The notes under the pieces are model-generated. The model made no database searches and was not told the DNA's origin. It saw only the letters and a program-made list of their open reading frames with translations. 64,000 nt of DNA from positions 124,001 through 188,000 of the forward strand of contig MVIG01000006.1 of assembly GCA_002086835.1 (NCBI GenBank), read 5' to 3'. Positions 34,550 through 59,383 of the stretch are shown piece by piece. Each line of letters begins with the position of its first letter. Position 1 is the stretch's first letter. Source of the stretch: Mycolicibacterium porcinum. Lineage in GTDB: Bacteria > Actinomycetota > Actinomycetes > Mycobacteriales > Mycobacteriaceae. Both the position numbers and the translations under genes were made by a program.

Positions 34550-34558
34550 GTGGTCCCT

Positions 34559-35650
34559 GTGAGCCTGAACCTGGGAATCGTCGGTTTGCCGAACGTCGGA
34601 AAGTCGACTCTGTTCAATGCCCTGACACGTAACGACGTGTTGGCGGCCAACTACCCGTTTGCGACCATCGAGCCCAACGAGGGCGTGGTCCCGCTGCCCG
34701 ATCCCCGGCTCGACAAGCTCGCCGAGATCTTCGGGTCGGAGAAGACCGTGCCGGCCCCGGTGACGTTCGTCGACATCGCGGGCATCGTGAAAGGCGCCTC
34801 GGAGGGCGCCGGACTCGGCAACAAGTTCCTCGCCAACATCCGCGAGTGCGACGCCATCTGTCAGGTCGTGCGGGTGTTCGCCGATGACGACGTGGTGCAC
34901 GTCGACGGGCGGGTGGATCCGCGCTCGGACATCGAGGTGATCGAGACCGAGCTGATCCTCGCCGACATGCAGACGCTGGAGAAGGCGGTGCCGCGGCTGG
35001 AGAAGGAAGCCCGCAACAACAAGGAGCGCAAGCCGGTCCTGGACGCGGCGGTCGCGGCCCAGGCGGTGTTCGACGACGGCAAGACGCTCTTCTCGACCGG
35101 CAAGGATTGGTCGATCCTGCGCGAGCTGAACCTGATGACCACCAAGCCGTTCCTCTACGTGTTCAACGCCGACGAGTCGGTGCTCACGGATCCGGCCAAA
35201 CAGGCCGAGCTGCGCGAGCTGGTGGCCCCGGCGGACGCGGTATTCCTGGACGCCAAGATCGAGTCGGAGCTGATCGAGCTCGACGACGAGTCGGCCCAGG
35301 AGCTGCTGGAGTCGATCGGGCAGACCGAACGCGGTCTCGACGCACTGGCCCGGGCCGGCTTCCACACGCTGCGGCTGCAGACCTACCTGACGGCCGGACC
35401 GAAGGAATCGCGCGCCTGGACCATCCATCAGGGCGACACCGCCCCCAAGGCGGCCGGCGTGATCCACACCGACTTCGAGAAAGGCTTCATCAAGGCCGAG
35501 GTGGTGTCGTTCGACGACCTCGTCGAAGCCGGTTCGATGGCCGCTGCCAAGGCCGCGGGCAAGGTCCGGATGGAAGGCAAGGACTACGTGATGGCCGACG
35601 GCGACGTGGTGGAGTTCCGCTTCGGATCAGCGTCCACATCCAAGGGCTAG
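34559..35650 (+). CDS. ychF: Redox-responsive ATPase/GTPase YchF with a replaced C-terminus
   Basis: Obg-family P-loop NTPase YchF (OLA1), 363 residues, orthologue of Rv1112. G1 GLPNVGKSTLFNAL, G3 DIAGIVKGASEG, G4 NADE, a coiled-coil insertion and the C-terminal TGS domain (residues 280-360, HQGDTAPKAAGVIHTDFEKG) are intact. The GTG at 34559 is the family start MSLNLGIVG. Most YchF proteins end in FxFNV-stop (EFRFNV in M. tuberculosis). Here the end reads EFRFGSASTSKG, and copies of the normal end lie further downstream, so the tail was swapped by an insertion. The function is probably intact because the change is only the last few residues. Confidence 0.95.
   Translation: MSLNLGIVGLPNVGKSTLFNALTRNDVLAANYPFATIEPNEGVVPLPDPRLDKLAEIFGSEKTVPAPVTFVDIAGIVKGASEGAGLGNKFLANIRECDAICQVVRVFADDDVVHVDGRVDPRSDIEVIETELILADMQTLEKAVPRLEKEARNNKERKPVLDAAVAAQAVFDDGKTLFSTGKDWSILRELNLMTTKPFLYVFNADESVLTDPAKQAELRELVAPADAVFLDAKIESELIELDDESAQELLESIGQTERGLDALARAGFHTLRLQTYLTAGPKESRAWTIHQGDTAPKAAGVIHTDFEKGFIKAEVVSFDDLVEAGSMAAAKAAGKVRMEGKDYVMADGDVVEFRFGSASTSKG
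35601..35650 (+). repeat. ychF 3'-end repeat R0 (in use as the gene end)
   Basis: GCGACGTGGTGGAGTTCCGC and on to TAG. The stretch TTCGGATCAGCGTCCACATC after it replaces the usual TTCAACGTGTAG, and is shared with the end of the first cassette gene (R1). Confidence 0.75.
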
Positions 35651-35651
35651 C

Positions 35652-36512
35652 GTGCACCTAGAACGGCCTGCGGAGGCGATTACGGGTGACCGCGAGCCCG
35701 ATTCGGCTGCGGCAGGAAGCGCGGGTGGAGTCGGAAATGACGGGATCGCAGAGCTTGAGGTGTATCTCTTGGGCTGGGATGCGGTGTCGTTTAACGGCGG
35801 TGCAAAAACTGCGTTCGCACGCGTGTACATGGCGGTGCACTCGTTGTGGTCCGCGAGGCGGTCCGCGAGAATGTGCGGCGAGCGCGAGACTGCCTTAGTT
35901 GAGGAAGGGACTCCGCGACTTGATCCCGGGCACAGGGCCGATGCAATTAATGCAGTCGTCTCTTCGGTGATGTTTCTGGAGGGTTTCGTCAACGAGCTAT
36001 TCTCCGATGTGGCGGATAAGCCACGCGGAACCCCGCGTACTCGAGGCTTGTCGGAAACGGCGCGCGAACAGATGCGTGAACTATGGAAGGGAGGCGCGGT
36101 TCCTAGCGATCGAATCTCGATCATTCACAAGTATCAGCTCGCTTTGCTTTGTGCGGGCAAGCGGACGTTTGATCCGGGGCGCGCACCGTTGCAGGACGTA
36201 GTCGCATTGATCCAGCTCCGGAATTACCTGATTCACTACAACTCTGAAAGTCCGAACACGGTCGAACTGCAGAAGGCGTTCGTTGGAGTCATCCAGCGAG
36301 CTGGCGAGAATCGGCAGCCCGTTGGGCCGCCTCTATTTCCAAACAAGGTATTGGGGGCGGGCTGTGCAAACTGGGCTTGTGACAGCGCGGCTAGCTTCGT
36401 CGACGAGTGGCAAGAGCGCCTTGGGCTCGATCACGACTATCGCAGCGAGTTAGACGTCTACCCGGTGGAGTTCCCGTTCGGAACAACGTCTACGTCCAAA
36501 GCCAAGGCTTAG
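35652..36512 (+). CDS. HEPN-like protein 1, first cassette gene
   Basis: A 286-residue protein starting at a GTG one base after the ychF stop. No membrane segments. Residues 96-118 (ADAINAVVSSVMFLEGFVNELF) and 181-200 fit the long helices of a HEPN bundle, and QLRNYLIHYNSE has the RNxxxH motif (R190, H195) typical of HEPN ribonucleases. Codon use is less GC-rich than in neighbours. The last 15 residues (VEFPFGTTSTSKAKA) mirror the altered ychF tail (VEFRFGSASTSKG), showing that the gene end itself contains the repeat. The specific HEPN family is not recognised; an RNase toxin or defence effector role is inference. Confidence 0.6.
   Translation: MHLERPAEAITGDREPDSAAAGSAGGVGNDGIAELEVYLLGWDAVSFNGGAKTAFARVYMAVHSLWSARRSARMCGERETALVEEGTPRLDPGHRADAINAVVSSVMFLEGFVNELFSDVADKPRGTPRTRGLSETAREQMRELWKGGAVPSDRISIIHKYQLALLCAGKRTFDPGRAPLQDVVALIQLRNYLIHYNSESPNTVELQKAFVGVIQRAGENRQPVGPPLFPNKVLGAGCANWACDSAASFVDEWQERLGLDHDYRSELDVYPVEFPFGTTSTSKAKA
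36465..36512 (+). repeat. ychF 3'-end repeat R1 (end of first cassette)
   Basis: GGTGGAGTTCCCGTTCGGAA and on to TTAG, aligned with R0 over about 45 bases with scattered changes and a 6-base insertion near the stop. Confidence 0.65.
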
Positions 36513-36537
36513 CGGCGTCACCGGGTGGGCGACTTAA

Positions 36538-36999
36538 GTGCAATTTGACGAGTACCCAACTGAGTTGGTGCGTGCCGTAGGACTGGTAGTGATGTCGGCG
36601 GCGTGGACGGAGGACAAGGCCGGGGAATTGGTGCAGCTGATGCACCAGATTGCCAACGGTCACGAAGTGGCCGCGAAGGGCTGGGCGGCATCTGGGCAGC
36701 AGTTAATCGAGGCGGTCGGGAAGGTCGTTACGGCCGACTTGGCCGCCCGACTCACTCGCGCCTTGGAGCTTCGCAACGAGGTCGTCCACGGGGTCTTTCT
36801 GGATAGTAAAGGCACACCCCCGTTCTGGGTCACGATGAAGCGTCAGTTCAGCAAGAGAGACCCGGCGGCCTATGGCATGGCTGCGCAATGGACGGTGGCC
36901 AGTCTCCTGGATCTCGCGCAAGAGTTCACCGACCTTGAGCACTTGATTGACGACGAAATCAGTTACGCGATGGGGCTGAAGACTCGACCGACGGCCTAG
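36538..36999 (+). CDS. HEPN-like protein 2
   Basis: A 153-residue helical protein from a GTG start. ELRNEVVHGVFL carries RNxxxH (R79, H84) at the end of a long helix, and DLEHLIDDEISYAMG closes the bundle. It resembles small HEPN proteins that often work next to an NTPase or a nucleotidyltransferase; no MNT partner is seen. It lies upstream of the AAA ATPase-TOPRIM gene in the same direction, separated by 318 bases. RNase activity is inferred from the motif only. Confidence 0.6.
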   Translation: MQFDEYPTELVRAVGLVVMSAAWTEDKAGELVQLMHQIANGHEVAAKGWAASGQQLIEAVGKVVTADLAARLTRALELRNEVVHGVFLDSKGTPPFWVTMKRQFSKRDPAAYGMAAQWTVASLLDLAQEFTDLEHLIDDEISYAMGLKTRPTA

Positions 37000-37317
37000 C
37001 TGCGGAGATGCAGCAGAGTCCTCGACTATCAGTGGAGTCTCGACATGAAGCCAAAATGGGTGCTAGGCCGCTGATCCGCTAATAGGGTGCGCTCTGTGGA
37101 CGATCCCGCCACCCGACTGCGAAAGGTTGGGATCGTCATGCGTATTACAGACCGGGCGGTATCCGCTGAATGAATGGGCCTACGGCGGCGCGTCGACCCT
37201 GACGGAGGGAACACGAAGGTCGGCGTGGGACGGAGGATGCCGGACAAGGGAAGCAGTCTTGGCTTCGTACCAATGAGTTGTGAACTAGCCCGACGCGTAT
37301 GCCCAGTCTGATGGAAT
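37000..37317 (+). other. Intergenic region of 318 bases before the ATPase gene
   Basis: No supported gene. It contains an inverted repeat GACGATCCC (37099-37107) and GGGATCGTC (37129-37137), and an upstream TAGGGT (37083-37088) that could be a -10. This is probably the control region of the ATPase gene. Confidence 0.4.
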
Positions 37318-39042
37318 GTGCCTGTGCAGGAGCTTCCCGGGTTTGGGTTCACTGGTTTTCGTAGCTTTTTCGGCGGCGTTCAGTACATGGATCCGCTTGC
37401 CAAGGTCAACCTGATCGCTGGGCAGAATAACAGCGGTAAGTCGAACGTACTGCGCGTAATTCGTGACATGTCAGAGATGATTGGCAAGCAGCCAGAGGGG
37501 CTCGACATCCCGCAGACGTCCAACCCCCCGACGTTCGAATTAGCAGTGCGTATCGGCGATGCAGCGTCCGTGCATGCGGAATTCTGTGCCGCGCAGAACA
37601 TTACGCAGGGGCAACAGGTCGAGTTCTTCCGGCAGATTCTGAAGAGCCCGGCGATTGACCTTCGCGGCGACGGCGGTGTGTGGATCCGCGCGAAAATCGA
37701 TGGAAATGCACCGGCCCACTACTGGCAATCGGTGGCACTGGGCGACTCCGATGCGCGGCAGGCAGTTGCCGCCTACATACAGTCACGAATGTCAAGTTAT
37801 TCCAGCGATCCGCGAGAGAACGCAGCCGAAGTGCTGAGGCAACTGCAGTCGCTGCTTACGTTCCCTAGGGTCCGGTTCGTCCAGGCGTCTCGTCGAATCG
37901 AAGACGCTCTCGACGGCGCAGCGATCATTGAGAAGCTTGCTGCACTCAGTCGGCCAGAATGGCACCAAGACGATGATCGTAAGAGGTTCTCTGCCATCAC
38001 GGACTTTTTGCGCTGGGTAATCGACGATGACGACGCAACCTTAGAGATTCCGCATACGCGGACTCAGCTGAATGTTCGTCGTGGTGATCTTCTCCTGCCC
38101 CTCGAACACCTGGGCAGCGGCATCTCGCAGGTAATCATGCTGGCCGCTTATGCCTCGATTGAACAGAAAACCGTGTTGTGCATTGAGGAGCCAGAAGTGC
38201 ATCTGCATCCCCTCCTGCAGCGAAAGCTGCTTCGGTACCTGCACGATGAGACTGACAACCAGTACATAATCGCTACTCACTCAGCGAACATGCTGGATTC
38301 ATCAATCGCGACCGTCTTTCATGCCACATATACACAGAATGGAACGGAACTCGCCTTCGCGGGGACGCCGCAAAACCTGAGCGACCTCTGCTATGACCTA
38401 GGCTATCGGCCAAGCGACTTACTTCAAACGAACTGCGCTGTGTGGGTTGAGGGTCCCTCTGATCGAGTCTACATTTCTCATTGGCTGGAGCTGTTAAATC
38501 CTGAACTGCGCGAGGGCATCGATTACACCATCATGTTTTACGGCGGCCGACTGCTCAACCACCTCACATCGACGGACCCCGAAGTCAGTGAGTTCATCAA
38601 ACTACGGCGGTTGAACCGGCATCTGGCTATCGTGATCGACAGCGATAAAGCCTCCGCGCAGAGCGCGCTTAATGCCACCAAGCGGCGTGTGCGAGACGAG
38701 ATGGAAGAGCCTGGGCTGGTCTGGATAACGCAAGGCCGGACCATCGAGAACTACGTTCCGCAGGAGTTATTGTCGGCTGTTCTCGGGCAGCTGTACCCCA
38801 AAAAGAAACTGACAGCGAACACAGATCGCTGGTCTGATGGATTGAGGCCCGTCGCCTCGAAGGACAGCTGGCCCGACAAGATCAAGGTTGCCAGAGCGGT
38901 AGTTCGGCGATGGGATTCCGGTTTGAATCACCTTGACTTACATCCGAAGATGACTGCACTTGCCCAGCTCATCGAGGCCGCGAATGGTCACAATGGTTCA
39001 GCCGTCGTACGCAAACCGAAGTCCGTCCCGGTGTTCCGTTAG
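37318..39042 (+). CDS. OLD-like AAA ATPase fused to TOPRIM nuclease
   Basis: A 574-residue protein of the AAA15/OLD type. Walker A GQNNSGKS at 35-42, an ABC-like signature LGSGISQVIML at 265-275, Walker B CIEEPEVHLHP at 288-298 and the H-loop ATHS at 319-322 make a complete ATPase. The C-terminal TOPRIM domain has VEGPSD at 377-382, DSD at 441-443 and an IENY motif at 476-479. This architecture is that of OLD family nucleases, related to Gabija GajA; the IENY element also recalls the TOPRIM partner AriB of PARIS, here fused to the ATPase. No helicase (GajB) is present. It probably senses phage or damaged DNA and acts with the adjacent HEPN proteins; that is inference. Confidence 0.85.
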   Translation: MPVQELPGFGFTGFRSFFGGVQYMDPLAKVNLIAGQNNSGKSNVLRVIRDMSEMIGKQPEGLDIPQTSNPPTFELAVRIGDAASVHAEFCAAQNITQGQQVEFFRQILKSPAIDLRGDGGVWIRAKIDGNAPAHYWQSVALGDSDARQAVAAYIQSRMSSYSSDPRENAAEVLRQLQSLLTFPRVRFVQASRRIEDALDGAAIIEKLAALSRPEWHQDDDRKRFSAITDFLRWVIDDDDATLEIPHTRTQLNVRRGDLLLPLEHLGSGISQVIMLAAYASIEQKTVLCIEEPEVHLHPLLQRKLLRYLHDETDNQYIIATHSANMLDSSIATVFHATYTQNGTELAFAGTPQNLSDLCYDLGYRPSDLLQTNCAVWVEGPSDRVYISHWLELLNPELREGIDYTIMFYGGRLLNHLTSTDPEVSEFIKLRRLNRHLAIVIDSDKASAQSALNATKRRVRDEMEEPGLVWITQGRTIENYVPQELLSAVLGQLYPKKKLTANTDRWSDGLRPVASKDSWPDKIKVARAVVRRWDSGLNHLDLHPKMTALAQLIEAANGHNGSAVVRKPKSVPVFR

Positions 39043-39090
39043 GCGTACGCCCTTCCGGCTGGCGACGTTGTTTGGCCACAAATGTGGAGA

Positions 39091-39111
39091 AAGTTCCGCT
39101 TCGACGTGTAG
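39091..39111 (+). repeat. ychF 3'-end repeat R2
   Basis: AGTTCCGCTTCGACGTGTAG at 39092-39111, which would read FRFDV-stop, preceded by TGTGGAGA. It lies between the ATPase gene and the reversed HEPN gene, outside any coding sequence. Confidence 0.7.
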
Positions 39112-39155
39112 TCCTGGGCTGGGCTCCAAAGCAACCCAAGCAATGACGCGAGCGT

Positions 39156-40013
39156 TCAATCGGACGGCGACCCATCTACGTCCTGCTGGACTGTTGACCA
39201 CGGGCCACGGAATGCTGTCAGAACCTCTTCGTGTCTGCCGTCCCACAGAAACGACCGCGTCAGTTTCGTTAGCGCGGCACAGGTCGCCTCACACTCTTCG
39301 ACCGCAACGGCATATCGATCCTTGCTCCCAGACCCAGGTGGGTCGACTGGGGCCGCCGTCCACTTGTAGTGAACAAACTCATTTCGAAGTGCGGCGATAC
39401 GTCGGATGGACCGAACCAGTTCGGTCTCTATCGGCGGGATATCTGCGACCTCCCAAAGTGCAGTAATCTTTGGATCTAGGTTGACTGCTCGCAACAATGC
39501 TCGAATATTTTCGTCGGAAACATCCTTCCGTTCGAACGCTCGCGACAAAACCGCGTTCAATTCGTGTTCAATCCACGTTGCGTACAGGACTAGCGCAGTC
39601 TGATGCTCGCCAGTTGCGGCATGTCCACTGGCCTGCGAGAGAAGTTCTTGGCGGTGGTCTGTAATCAACCTGACGTCCTCTTTATCCGGGTGCGGCGGGG
39701 GAGTGTGGGCCCAGTTGCGGGCCCATGAAGTGAACTCGGCAAATATTTCCTCGACCGGTCTGTCACCGATGCGCAACGCCCCTGATTCGACTCTCGTGAC
39801 AAAAATGGCTTCGGCAATCCTGTCGGCTATACGTGCAAAGTCGACCTCATTCTCGATCGGGTCCCGCTTGCCAATATCATTCACGCTGGTCAGATTAGTC
39901 AATGCGTGCCTAATCGCGCTGGGTCGCCTCGATGATGTGGCGAGGGCTTTGACTCTGCTTACTATGTGGAACTGAGACCGGGCCGGCTGGTCGGGCAGTT
40001 GATGCTGTTCCAT
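39156..40013 (-). CDS. HEPN-like protein 3 (opposite strand)
   Basis: A 285-residue protein from an ATG at 40013. Its C-terminal half is a helical bundle: EHQTALVLYATWIEHELNAV (long helix with acidic residues) and IRRIAALRNEFVHYKW with RNxxxH (R210, H215), the HEPN catalytic pattern. The N-terminal 100 residues are unlike any family I know. It is convergent with the ATPase gene and bracketed by ychF-end repeats R2 and R3, as if it were a separate cassette inserted in reverse. Function inferred only from the motif and context. Confidence 0.6.
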   Translation of the reverse strand: MEQHQLPDQPARSQFHIVSRVKALATSSRRPSAIRHALTNLTSVNDIGKRDPIENEVDFARIADRIAEAIFVTRVESGALRIGDRPVEEIFAEFTSWARNWAHTPPPHPDKEDVRLITDHRQELLSQASGHAATGEHQTALVLYATWIEHELNAVLSRAFERKDVSDENIRALLRAVNLDPKITALWEVADIPPIETELVRSIRRIAALRNEFVHYKWTAAPVDPPGSGSKDRYAVAVEECEATCAALTKLTRSFLWDGRHEEVLTAFRGPWSTVQQDVDGSPSD

Positions 40014-40027
40014 GACGTGATCCTGTG

Positions 40028-40048
40028 CAGTTCCGGTTCAACGTGTAG
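40028..40048 (+). repeat. ychF 3'-end repeat R3
   Basis: AGTTCCGGTTCAACGTGTAG at 40029-40048, exactly the normal mycobacterial ychF end (FRFNV-stop), with GACGTG 15 bases upstream, as in ychF. It differs from R2 at two of 20 bases. Confidence 0.75.
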
Positions 40049-40085
40049 ACCTCTGGCCGGCAGCCAAAGGAATAGGGCCTTCCGA

Positions 40086-40101
40086 CTGGACAAGTGTCCA
40101 G
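40086..40101 (+). promoter_or_regulatory. Palindrome upstream of the SnoaL-like gene
   Basis: CTGGACA-AG-TGTCCAG, perfect 7-bp arms, 42 bases before the ATG at 40144. A candidate operator overlapping the promoter. Confidence 0.5.
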
Positions 40102-40143
40102 CTATCGTGGCCATCACCTAGATGGGAACGGAGATGGGCAGTG

Positions 40144-40572
40144 ATGAGCAAGGTTCCGAGCCGGAAGGCTCGCTTGGCGCATGCCTCCAAGCACGCTGAT
40201 CTGTGGAACGCGGGCAAGAAGGACGAATGGGTGGAATCGTGGCGCACGATCTGCCCTGGCGAGGTTCGCATGTTCGACCCGGTAGGCACCGAGGAGAAGC
40301 ACGGTTTCGCCGCCGCCACCTCGGACGCCTTCGACATGTTCCAGTCGATCTTGAAGATCAAGATGATCACGGTTCAGGTCAATGGGAACGAGATGGCATG
40401 GGTGTGCGAGAACCACTTCGGCACCGAACCGAACGTCGGCGTTGCGCACAGTATCGAGACGTTCGCCTGGGATGACGACGGGAACCTGCTCATCAAGACC
40501 TACTATCCGATGCCGGAATCCGTTGGTGGCGAGGCTGACCCGTACGCCCACCTGCTGGAAGGGCAGAAATAG
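40144..40572 (+). CDS. SnoaL/NTF2-like protein
   Basis: A 142-residue protein with the SnoaL-like cone fold pattern: an N-terminal helix (ARLAHASKHADLWNAGKKDEWVESW), then strands TICPGEVRMFDPVGTEEK and, near the end, ETFAWDDDGNLLIKTYYPMPE. Members are ketosteroid isomerases, dehydratases or ligand-binding proteins of unknown role; Trp-rich and Asp residues in the pocket cannot define the activity. The ATG at 40144 follows GGAGATGGGCAGTG. It lies between repeats R3 and R4, so it may be part of the cassette array, though its base composition is closer to the core genome. Confidence 0.65.
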   Translation: MSKVPSRKARLAHASKHADLWNAGKKDEWVESWRTICPGEVRMFDPVGTEEKHGFAAATSDAFDMFQSILKIKMITVQVNGNEMAWVCENHFGTEPNVGVAHSIETFAWDDDGNLLIKTYYPMPESVGGEADPYAHLLEGQK

Positions 40573-40584
40573 TCAACGTGGACC

Positions 40585-40615
40585 GCGACGTGGTGGAGTC
40601 CGCTTCAACGTGTGA
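40585..40615 (+). repeat. ychF 3'-end repeat R4, likely displaced native end
   Basis: GCGACGTGGTGGAGTCCGCT and on through TTCAACGTGTGA. It equals the present ychF end over its first 23 positions except for one missing T, then gives the canonical RFNV-stop. It is the longest match to ychF outside the gene. Confidence 0.8.
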
Positions 40616-40677
40616 GTTCGGTACTGGCTGACGATCTCACCAACCTGGGTCGGCGGGTGTCGGTGCCGAACTGCTCC

Positions 40678-40696
40678 GGAGTTCCGGTTTGACGTG
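40678..40696 (+). repeat. ychF 3'-end repeat R5, degenerate
   Basis: GGAGTTCCGGTTTGACGTG, again the EFRFDV-type end but without a stop codon. It is the last copy seen going away from ychF. Confidence 0.55.
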
Positions 40697-40885
40697 GGAG
40701 CGGCGTGTTAACGTGCCCGATGTGGCGACGATGTCTGCCGCCACATTCTGCGCTTCCAGGTGAACGATCACCTGAATCATTGCGGAGAGGCCTGAGCTCA
40801 TCAGGACATGTCCGAATGGGGTGCTGCGCCTGCTGGCGCGCGAATTCCATTGTGCCGGTTGATCGATACCGGCAGGCGAAAGGAC

Positions 40886-41245
40886 ATGGCAGTGGTTAAC
40901 AAGGACGACAAGAACCTCAAGCAGGTGCTCGACAAGATCGCGAAAATGGATGAGCCTGCGCGGGCTGTGATGCGACGCATGCACGACGTGATCGTTGCCG
41001 CTGCGCCGGAACTCAAGCCGCGCATCTGGTACGGCATGCCGGGCTATGCAAAGTCGGCGAGTAGTCCCGTGCTCGTCTTTTTCCGGAATGACGACCTGAT
41101 GAGCCTTGGGGTGAGCGAGAAGGCCACGCTGAAGCCTGCCGGGGGCAAGGACGGACTGCTGATTCCGGCGGCCTGGTACTTCGATGGCCTGGACGATGTC
41201 ACCGAGCAGCGTGTTGCCGAGATCGTCCGCGCCGCCATCGAGTAA
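40886..41245 (+). CDS. DUF1801 domain protein
   Basis: A 119-residue protein of the DUF1801/YdhG type (SufE-like small alpha-beta fold). Typical segments are MRRMHDVIVAAAPELKPRIW, YGMPGYAK, VLVFFRNDDLMSLGVSEKA and the C-terminal helix. ATG 40886 follows AAAGGAC; a longer frame from 40808 has no such signal and would cover the operator region. Function unknown; members are often near stress genes. Confidence 0.8.
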   Translation: MAVVNKDDKNLKQVLDKIAKMDEPARAVMRRMHDVIVAAAPELKPRIWYGMPGYAKSASSPVLVFFRNDDLMSLGVSEKATLKPAGGKDGLLIPAAWYFDGLDDVTEQRVAEIVRAAIE

Positions 41246-58240: not shown

Positions 58241-59383
58241 ATGAAGCGACAGATCTACGGCCCGGAGCACGAGGCCTTCCGCGACACGGTCAAGGAGTAC
58301 ATCGAGCGCGAGCTCGTGCCCAACGCCGAGAAGTGGGAAACCGAGCGGATCGTCGACCGGTCGGCGTACACGGCAGCAGGCAAGTACGGCCTCATCGGTT
58401 TCAACATGCCCGAGGAGTACGGTGGCGGCGGCTCGGATGACTTCCGGTTCAACGCCATCATCGACGAGGAGCTCGCCAAGGCCGGCGTGCACGGCCCGGC
58501 CCTGAGCCTGCACAACGACGTCGTCGGCCCGTACTTCAAGGAGCTGGCCAACGACGAGCAGAAGCAGCGCTGGATGCCCGGGATCGCCAGTGGCGAACTG
58601 ATCATCGCGATCGCGATGACCGAACCGGGCGCTGGCAGCGACCTGGCCGGCATCCGGACCTCGGCGGTGCGCGACGGTGACGACTGGATCATCAACGGCT
58701 CCAAGACCTTCATCTCGTCGGGCATCAACTGCGACCTGTGTGTCGTGGTGGCCCGCACCGACCCCGAGGCCGGCCACAAGGGCTTCACGCTGTTCGTGGT
58801 GGAGCGGGGCATGGAGGGCTTCACCCGCGGCCGCAAGCTCGACAAGATGGGCCTGCACAGCCAGGACACCTCGGAGCTGCATTTCGAGAACGTGCGCGTG
58901 CCCAACGCCAACCTGCTCGGCAAGGAAGGTCGCGGTTTCTACCACCTGATGACCAACCTGCCCTCGGAGCGGCTCGGCATTGCCATCTCGGCGATCTACG
59001 GTGCCCGAGGGGTTTTCCAGGAGACGCTGCAATACGCCAAGGACCGCAAGGCTTTTGGTCAGCCGATCGGCAGCTTCCAGCACAACCGGTTCCTGCTCGC
59101 GGAGATGGAGACCGAGCTGGAGGTCACCGAGAACTACATCGACCGCTGCCTGCAGGGCGTCGTCGACGGTGAGCTGACCGCGGTCGAGGCGGCCAAGGCC
59201 AAGTGGTGGGCCACCGAGGTCGCCAAGAAGGTCGTCGACAACTGCGTGCAGCTGCACGGCGGCTACGGCTACATGATGGAGTACCGCGTCGCGCGCGCCT
59301 ACGTCGATGGACGTATCCAGACGATCTTCGGTGGCACCACCGAGATCATGAAGGAGATCATCGGTCGCGAGCTCGGCGTCTAG
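58241..59383 (+). CDS. Acyl-CoA dehydrogenase
   Basis: FAD flavoenzyme of 380 residues that introduces the 2,3 double bond. Motifs: IAMTEPGAGSDLAG, FISSGINCDLCVVVA, QLHGGYGYMMEYRVARAYVD, and the end IFGGTTEIMKEIIGRELG. The usual base Glu in YEGT is Gly here (IFGGT), while SERLGIA in helix G has a Glu, so the catalytic base is likely at the isovaleryl-CoA/long-chain position. That suggests branched or long substrates. Last gene of the operon; a strong terminator follows. Confidence 0.92.
   Translation: MKRQIYGPEHEAFRDTVKEYIERELVPNAEKWETERIVDRSAYTAAGKYGLIGFNMPEEYGGGGSDDFRFNAIIDEELAKAGVHGPALSLHNDVVGPYFKELANDEQKQRWMPGIASGELIIAIAMTEPGAGSDLAGIRTSAVRDGDDWIINGSKTFISSGINCDLCVVVARTDPEAGHKGFTLFVVERGMEGFTRGRKLDKMGLHSQDTSELHFENVRVPNANLLGKEGRGFYHLMTNLPSERLGIAISAIYGARGVFQETLQYAKDRKAFGQPIGSFQHNRFLLAEMETELEVTENYIDRCLQGVVDGELTAVEAAKAKWWATEVAKKVVDNCVQLHGGYGYMMEYRVARAYVDGRIQTIFGGTTEIMKEIIGRELGV

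Follow-up and report, generated by a model that had tools for sequence, protein, structure and literature searches.

What leaves the last bases of a single gene repeated, time after time, in the DNA that follows it? The question is raised by a 64,000-nucleotide stretch of Mycolicibacterium porcinum (contig MVIG01000006.1, positions 124,001 to 188,000 of the forward strand), which was analysed as a whole and is called the window here. In it, the 3' end of ychF, a gene for a GTPase/ATPase (34550..35650, + strand; Pfam YchF-GTPase_C, 2.7e-38), recurs five times downstream (R1-R5), always on the + strand, and the FNV end of ychF itself has been replaced by GSASTSKG and a stop. An earlier sequence-only reading had placed five such copies, described the new ending and noted that R4 is one base short; all of this was borne out. 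We consider it highly probable that the ychF end is the bacterial attachment site (attB) of a family of large serine integrases and that the window holds a stack of such insertions.

Copies of the ychF end and their empty sites

The copies in the window are of two kinds. R1 (36465-36512, as a junction 36453..36512, + strand) has the replaced type of ending (FG..STSK) and lies inside a 54-nt repeat with 76% identity to the ychF end. R2 to R5, also on the + strand, have the native type (F[ND]V). R2 (39091-39111, as a junction 39061..39111) reads KFRFDV-stop and R3 (40028-40048, as a junction 39998..40048) QFRFNV-stop; in R4 (about 40581-40615) the sequence is GACGTGGTGGAGT-CCGCTTCAACGTGTGA, one base short, and R5 (40679 to 40696-40699) reads EFRFDV without a stop. 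The pattern GTTCCGNTTYRACGTG has three exact matches in the 6.96-Mb genome of this organism, and these are R2, R3 and R5, all in the array; nine more matches with one mismatch lie elsewhere in the genome, and R1 and R4 fall outside the pattern. We trained a weight matrix on 49 intact ychF ends taken from other genomes; with it, R2, R3 and R5 scored above 20, a level reached by nothing in 60 simulated 64-kb windows. R4 scored 15.9, and the 60 simulated windows contained two matches above 16. The four main segments have a G+C content of 57-60%, lower than that of ychF (66%) and of the flank (63%). A further match at 58439 (+ strand; score 18.5) has similar counterparts far behind ychF in the loci L006, L008 and L049 and probably belongs to an unrelated, conserved coding gene.

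Among 198 genomes of the genus, ychF was present in 193 (E <= 1e-150), and from 120 of these we fetched the gene and the DNA that follows it, to a distance of about 18 kb at most; with the window this makes 121 loci. All comparisons of loci were made across species. The ychF tail is FRFNV in 101 loci and replaced in 20, the window included; the new tails include GSTSTSKG, GTTSTSKSKA, GQASKTKQ, QTTSGGKAAAK and HGATTKPTK. The rates are not strictly unbiased, as a third batch of 20 loci was picked mainly for odd frame lengths (replaced tails in 5 of these 20 and in 14 of the 100 remaining loci), and contig ends cut some of the stretches (e.g. L031 and L069); elements longer than the fetched stretch would escape. 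At a matrix threshold of 19, 65 copies were found behind ychF on the forward strand, none on the reverse strand and none with the mirrored matrix (121 loci, 2.0 Mb). A loose threshold of 10 gave 47 forward, 4 reverse and 6 mirrored matches in the first 61 loci. Of the 121 loci, 52 have a replaced tail or a copy, so the DNA behind ychF appears to be a main point of entry for accessory genes. The arrangement of the genes that follow ychF varies greatly from locus to locus; a VOC/glyoxalase gene, for example, occurs in 53 of them at varying distance.

The copies coincide with the boundaries of inserted DNA. In an all-against-all comparison, the stretch that lies directly behind ychF in the empty locus L004 starts in L006 at a copy at +1844 and in L010 at a copy at +693, and the empty locus L063 matches L043 from the copy of the latter at +2173. 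For the window, empty sites are given by L054 and L047, in which FRFNV-stop is followed directly by the DUF1801 region. In blastn, the homology between the window and L080 and L099 sets in at R5 on the side of the window and at the copies of the two loci on the other; for L054 and L047 it starts about 70 bp behind R5 and extends to R5 in the multiple alignment only. To the left of GAGTTCCG, L054 and L047 have ychF sequence, and the window, L080 and L099 each have something different. R5 thus reads as the oldest right end, the window beyond it matching the flank of the empty sites. These comparisons already largely refute another view, namely that selection keeps the copies as signals at 3' ends (for example terminators or RNA elements) and that chance or gene conversion has spread them. 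We regard it as almost certainly wrong: the copies do sit at gene ends, and by eye several cargo genes read in frame into them, but they bound insertions, empty sites exist and an integrase family pairs with the copies.

A serine integrase family paired with the site

In four loci with replaced tails, a large serine recombinase gene lies on the - strand at the next copy, 10-16 kb away; the gene in L059 is split over two frames. The element of L059 also carries a tyrosine recombinase-like gene beside the split one. Over the 121 loci, a serine integrase was found behind ychF in seven, all with replaced tails, and in none of the 101 FNV-tail loci within the fetched stretch (Fisher 1.2e-6). A profile search of the 198 genomes (E <= 1e-90, with up to 7 candidates scored per genome) gave eight matches, and all eight lie behind ychF within about 17 kb; the eighth, in G194, is about 8 kb from a ychF with the tail HGATTKSK. 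The tail is replaced at all eight loci. A native-end copy stands directly beside the start of the integrase gene in 7 of the 8, among them G194, where the distance is 40 bp; L095 is an exception in that a junction made of two element halves adjoins the integrase, the native-end copy lying about 0.85 kb beyond it. Besides the empty sites, the sequence-only reading had pointed to an integrase whose elements end in the repeat as the thing to look for, and this serine recombinase family and the empty loci L054 and L047 supply both.

The six integrases that were scanned all have Resolvase and Recombinase domains, and two scanned ones match the phage integrase family phrog_95. Phage genes were found in the two elements scanned, namely a terminase in L055 and a portal and a major head protein in L029. 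We also searched an independent collection, which contained 76 relatives of the integrase, 13 of them with at least 45% identity, although two of its loci (L125 and L128) apparently repeat genomes of the first set. A copy of the ychF end lies beside the gene start in 12 of these 13, which come from Mycobacterium/Mycolicibacterium, Lentzea, Sinomonas, Pseudonocardia, Jiangella and an unassigned actinobacterial bin, and the ychF tail is replaced in all seven cases where it is visible. For the distant integrases, no copy was found in the 36 loci scanned of 63 (top score 6.2), many of which belong to other phyla, where ychF ends may differ. Among viral contigs, L201-L203 have the right junction and L204 has the junction of two element halves, and in L206 the sequence before the gene is too short; no terminal repeats were found at the ends of the fetched L201-L206 stretches, some of which are partial contigs. 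Close phages were considered as a source and rejected: a tblastn search of 50,697 phage records with the L029 integrase matched 1,054, all below 60% identity, the best listed being at 31-36%.

The geometry of the sites is that of serine integrases. Here B and B' are the halves of attB in ychF, and P and P' are those of the attachment site of the element (attP). Counted from the GAG codon, AACGT stands at +12 in the native half and at +17 in the element half, and a shift of 5 bp was the best or tied for best among shifts of 0-7 in all ten two-ended elements (one tie for P', two for P); L126 and L137, where the ychF end was not located, were left out. A difference of 5 bp in spacing between attB and attP, with the motif for the zinc domain nearer the centre in attB, is described for serine integrases (PMC3783163). 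P read outwards agrees with P' at 11-18 of 28 positions in seven elements, so that the site is an imperfect inverted repeat, and since P resembles P' in this way, the alignment suggests that the centre is the GT three bases before GAG. The P and P' halves of the same element are somewhat more alike than swapped pairs (permutation p 0.0097). As would be expected of an inverted repeat, 7 of 11 matches of the P' matrix on the reverse strand fall on known P halves.

Four types of junction occur in the arrays of the genus: B+P', P+B', P+P' (L095 and L113) and B+B'. Among 74 right copies, the P half exceeds the 99.9% background level in 27, six of which belong to the 19 sites used to train the matrix; a clear ychF B half is present in 10, and the remainder have neither. 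Every form of the site was seen, if in different species: the left junction (attL) as B+P', the right junction (attR) as P+B', attP as P+P' in L204, and a restored attB in the empty sites. The B+B' copies need some further event.

Reading the window as stacked insertions

We propose that the last 40-50 bp of ychF serve as attB for large serine integrases, encoded by elements that resemble prophages or satellites, and that integration would cross over at the GT in the codon before GAG-TTC. The left junction would then join ychF to a P' half that encodes EFRF or EFRH together with a new short tail and stop; because P' supplies these, YchF would stay whole with a changed C-terminus. The right junction would consist of the P half of the element and the native ychF end. 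In the window, several insertions would have taken place at one point, their integrase and phage genes having been lost or never present, and what is left behind would be a ychF end of attL type, R1 as a P' end, R3 and probably R2 as attR-type junctions, R5 as the oldest right end, and the cargo. The array can therefore be read as insertions piled on one another that have decayed or lack an integrase.

The half-sites agree with this to different degrees. The left junction (35597..35650, + strand) is of attL type, with a ychF half (B) and an element half (P') that encodes FGSASTSKG, and we infer that its crossover dinucleotide is the GT at 35609-35610; nearly the same tail (GSTSTSKG) is found in L025, L029 and L052. 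R1 has a clear P' half (32.1 of a maximum of 38.6 with the P' matrix) and the tail FGTTSTSKAKA-stop, and its region is 87% identical over 56 nt to the junction that adjoins the L095 integrase. R3 is of attR type, with a native B' half (FNV-stop; score 26.3) and a P score of 12.8, compared to 5.9 for the 99.99% background level. R2, taken as a right junction, has a native-type B' half (FDV-stop; score 20.2). R4 is a nearly complete ychF end with both the B and the B' half, and is 95% identical over 19 nt to the B half of ychF.

Several observations weigh against this account. The P half of R2 is weak, its score of -7.2 exceeding the 99% background level (-9.8) but not the 99.9% level (-0.9), and the P matrix scan of the right copies found no P half at R4 and R5. 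The left half of R1 is only weakly ychF-like: 11 of 15 positions are identical, a level reached at 99 of 63000 window positions. It may be the coding sequence of the cargo gene HEPN1 itself, because homologues of HEPN1 run 7-17 residues past the matched part and have other ends. An earlier suggestion that these homologues end about 20 residues earlier was withdrawn, as it was based on local matches and the full reads go 7-17 residues further. R4 is nearly a full ychF end, and a single event between attP and attB leaves no such copy. An integrase gene is absent from the window array, and the genome of this organism has no match at E <= 1e-90. Among the close relatives of the integrase, the one in M. 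neoaurum (L126), 1 of 13, has only a weak copy (14.5), and the viral contig L205 (48% identity) has none (0.3). Downstream copies are also present in 32 of the 101 FNV-tail loci despite their native ychF tail, which the simple model does not predict, and at some of these loci the copies belong to a tyrosine-recombinase family instead (L043, L087 and L062, and L101 by its ends).

Relics of an old tail that score at least 20 were found right behind FNV stops at 12 of the 101 left ends and at 5 of the 65 right copies, compared to 4 of 720 control windows; for a score of at least 16 the figures are 24 of 101 and 17 of 65, compared to 78 of 720. Both cut-offs were set with the data in view and the enrichment is modest. 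Since remains of an element tail directly follow the FNV stop, it seems that the native end was regained after insertion at some loci. We dropped the idea that FNV was always restored by a 5-bp deletion, as by eye the relics join at varying points.

Complete copies such as R4 might have arisen in another way, by one-sided homologous recombination or an aberrant excision that duplicated the ychF end with its neighbour gene. This would concern R4 alone in the window and is compatible with stacked serine-integrase insertions; we regard it as a real possibility, somewhat short of an even chance. The ten right copies with a clear B half speak for it, as does the ychF stretch before the site, which varies from about 11 to 48 bp by eye, as expected of joins without a fixed boundary. 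However, the segment between R3 and R4 (window 40062-40611) is 83% identical to L114 from -12 to 534, across both of its ends, and this argues for a unit with fixed ends. In L114 the segment lies directly behind ychF and ends in a complete ychF end.

It is also conceivable, though we think it unlikely, that the ychF end is a reusable cassette platform. In that case, short gene cassettes that lack an integrase would be mobilised in trans by serine integrases belonging to elements that reside in the host or visit it; FNV would be regained each time, attB would be created again and the next cassette would land in front. If this is true, the platform would be a serine-integrase counterpart of the integron array for accessory and defence genes in actinobacteria.

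Less probable still is the insertion of some of the segments by tyrosine-recombinase elements, in which a common core of about 20 bp in attP and attB would keep FNV on both sides. Other loci do contain the traces of such elements. The C-terminal part of a tyrosine integrase lies directly behind the ychF end in L043, in L087 and in the right flank of L097, a broken tyrosine integrase lies 0.9 kb further in at L062, and the ends of L043, L087, L101 and L062 resemble each other. The integrase end has nine matches in the genus; of the seven that were placed relative to ychF, three lie at the gene and four elsewhere, the other two being in G134 and G164. A purely serine-type reading of the FNV-flanked segments was therefore rejected for L043, L087, L101 and L062 because of these integrase pieces or shared ends, and it seems that a second, tyrosine-recombinase family, seen as remnants or shared ends, also targets the end of ychF, with FNV preserved on either side. 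In the window, however, ychF has lost its native tail, and serine-type half-sites are present at R3 (P) and R1 (P'); the tyrosine-integrase pieces have no match there and none in the genome of this organism at E <= 1e-12.

We thus favor the descent of the window segments from serine-integrase insertions at attB. The sequence-only reading had proposed repeated site-specific or homologous insertion, with each event supplying a new stop. The site-specific part is supported, the new tail and stop being the element-derived half of the left junction; the complete copy R4, the lack of an integrase in the window and the copies of the tyrosine family go beyond what it covered.

Cargo of the arrays and comparison with known systems

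Five cargo genes lie between ychF and the flank. HEPN1 (35652..36512, + strand) has the motif RNYLIH, and its last residues, FPFGTTSTSKAKA, are the P'-type end R1. In an alignment of eight members R190 and H195 are invariant, and the nearest entries to its AlphaFold model are HEPN proteins; a HEPN fold is thus predicted for HEPN1, the sole one of three RNxxxH proteins with fold support. A homologue (39% identity, one stop) lies within the integrase-bearing element of L097, and the others in the genus are away from ychF or were not assigned a position. The genes with the motifs RNEVVH (36538..36999, + strand) and RNEFVH (39156..40013, - strand) are open reading frames that look HEPN-like by eye only. 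The product of the former has no match in Pfam or PADLOC and none near the cut-off in NCBIfam, and the latter has a single homologue outside its own genome among the 198 genomes. The ATPase gene between them (37318..39042, + strand) matches AAA_21 in Pfam (3.6e-23) and AriA (2.2e-26) and GajA (1.7e-20) in PADLOC; its product is related to the defence ATPases of the AriA/GajA/OLD type. A gene for a 143-residue protein, called NTF2-like by eye (40141..40572, + strand), belongs to the segment that the window has in common with L114, and is also found behind ychF in 8 of the 120 other loci. No packaging or capsid gene was found among the five cargo genes when eight window proteins were scanned against Pfam. 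The DUF1801 gene (40886..41245, + strand) is the first of the ancestral flank, as it is the first behind ychF in L054 and L047.

In other genomes, we scanned 79 of the 90 frames listed for short arrays against Pfam and PADLOC. Among the families listed (25 of 81 in Pfam and 25 of 64 in PADLOC) were AbiTii, DarG, RmrA, a type II restriction enzyme, PIN, Phd/YefM and Macro, and there were also many metabolic matches; defence is a part of the array cargo, not the whole. By eye, some cargo genes run in frame into a ychF-type end that gives them their last residues and stop (L080 at +409, L012 at +643, L123 at +641, L027 at +562 and the window at 36453-36512).

The attachment sites of serine integrases are described as not easily predicted (PMC10654092), and the ychF system provides a site, an integrase family and readable attB and attP halves for this class. 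It would also explain why the C-terminus of YchF differs between mycobacterial species. New integration vectors for actinobacteria could be built on the pairs of integrase and attB, and the order in which past insertions took place may be preserved in the stacked junctions.

In the open-access literature, to which the search was largely confined, a combination of ychF with attachment-site or integrase terms returned pneumococcal papers only, and among the papers listed by wider searches of it none was seen to name ychF as a 3'-end attachment site. The pneumococcal prophages also adjoin ychF, but their site is described as intergenic and upstream of the gene, where it affects the promoter, and not at the 3' end (PMC6375853, PMC8637289, PMC10383233). 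The phage-inducible chromosomal island (PICI) candidates of Mycobacterium, including those like phiRv1 and phiRv2, combine an integrase, in some cases a serine integrase, with a capsid gene (PMC10654092). The two elements scanned here, L055 and L029, likewise hold an integrase and packaging or capsid genes together. However, ychF is not mentioned in the main text of that survey, and a serine site that it describes lies in MAB_3702 (PMC10654092).

The insertion site of the staphylococcal cassette chromosome (SCC) is the 3' end of rlmH. Like the ychF system, SCC and pseudo-SCC elements have a serine recombinase whose site lies in a conserved housekeeping gene; their borders are imperfect direct repeats, and composite islands and forms without a recombinase occur (PMC10581047). 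They differ in phylum and target gene, the target here being ychF in all eight matches of the genus; the ychF-site integrases match phrog_95 in the two scanned, their elements replace the C-terminal tail, and many of the segments are just 0.5-2 kb long. Cis-mobilizable elements (CIMEs) are decayed, att-flanked segments without a recombinase that accrete in tandem with integrative and conjugative or integrative and mobilizable elements at the 3' ends of genes; they measure 1.2-13 kb, and microCIMEs have no genes (PMC7563491). The window likewise has att-flanked segments in tandem without a recombinase, bounded by the ychF end, R1 and R3, whereas the parents at the ychF site carry phage genes in the two elements scanned. 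In how it works, the ychF system resembles the SCC composite islands and the CIMEs, at a different gene and with phage-like parents.

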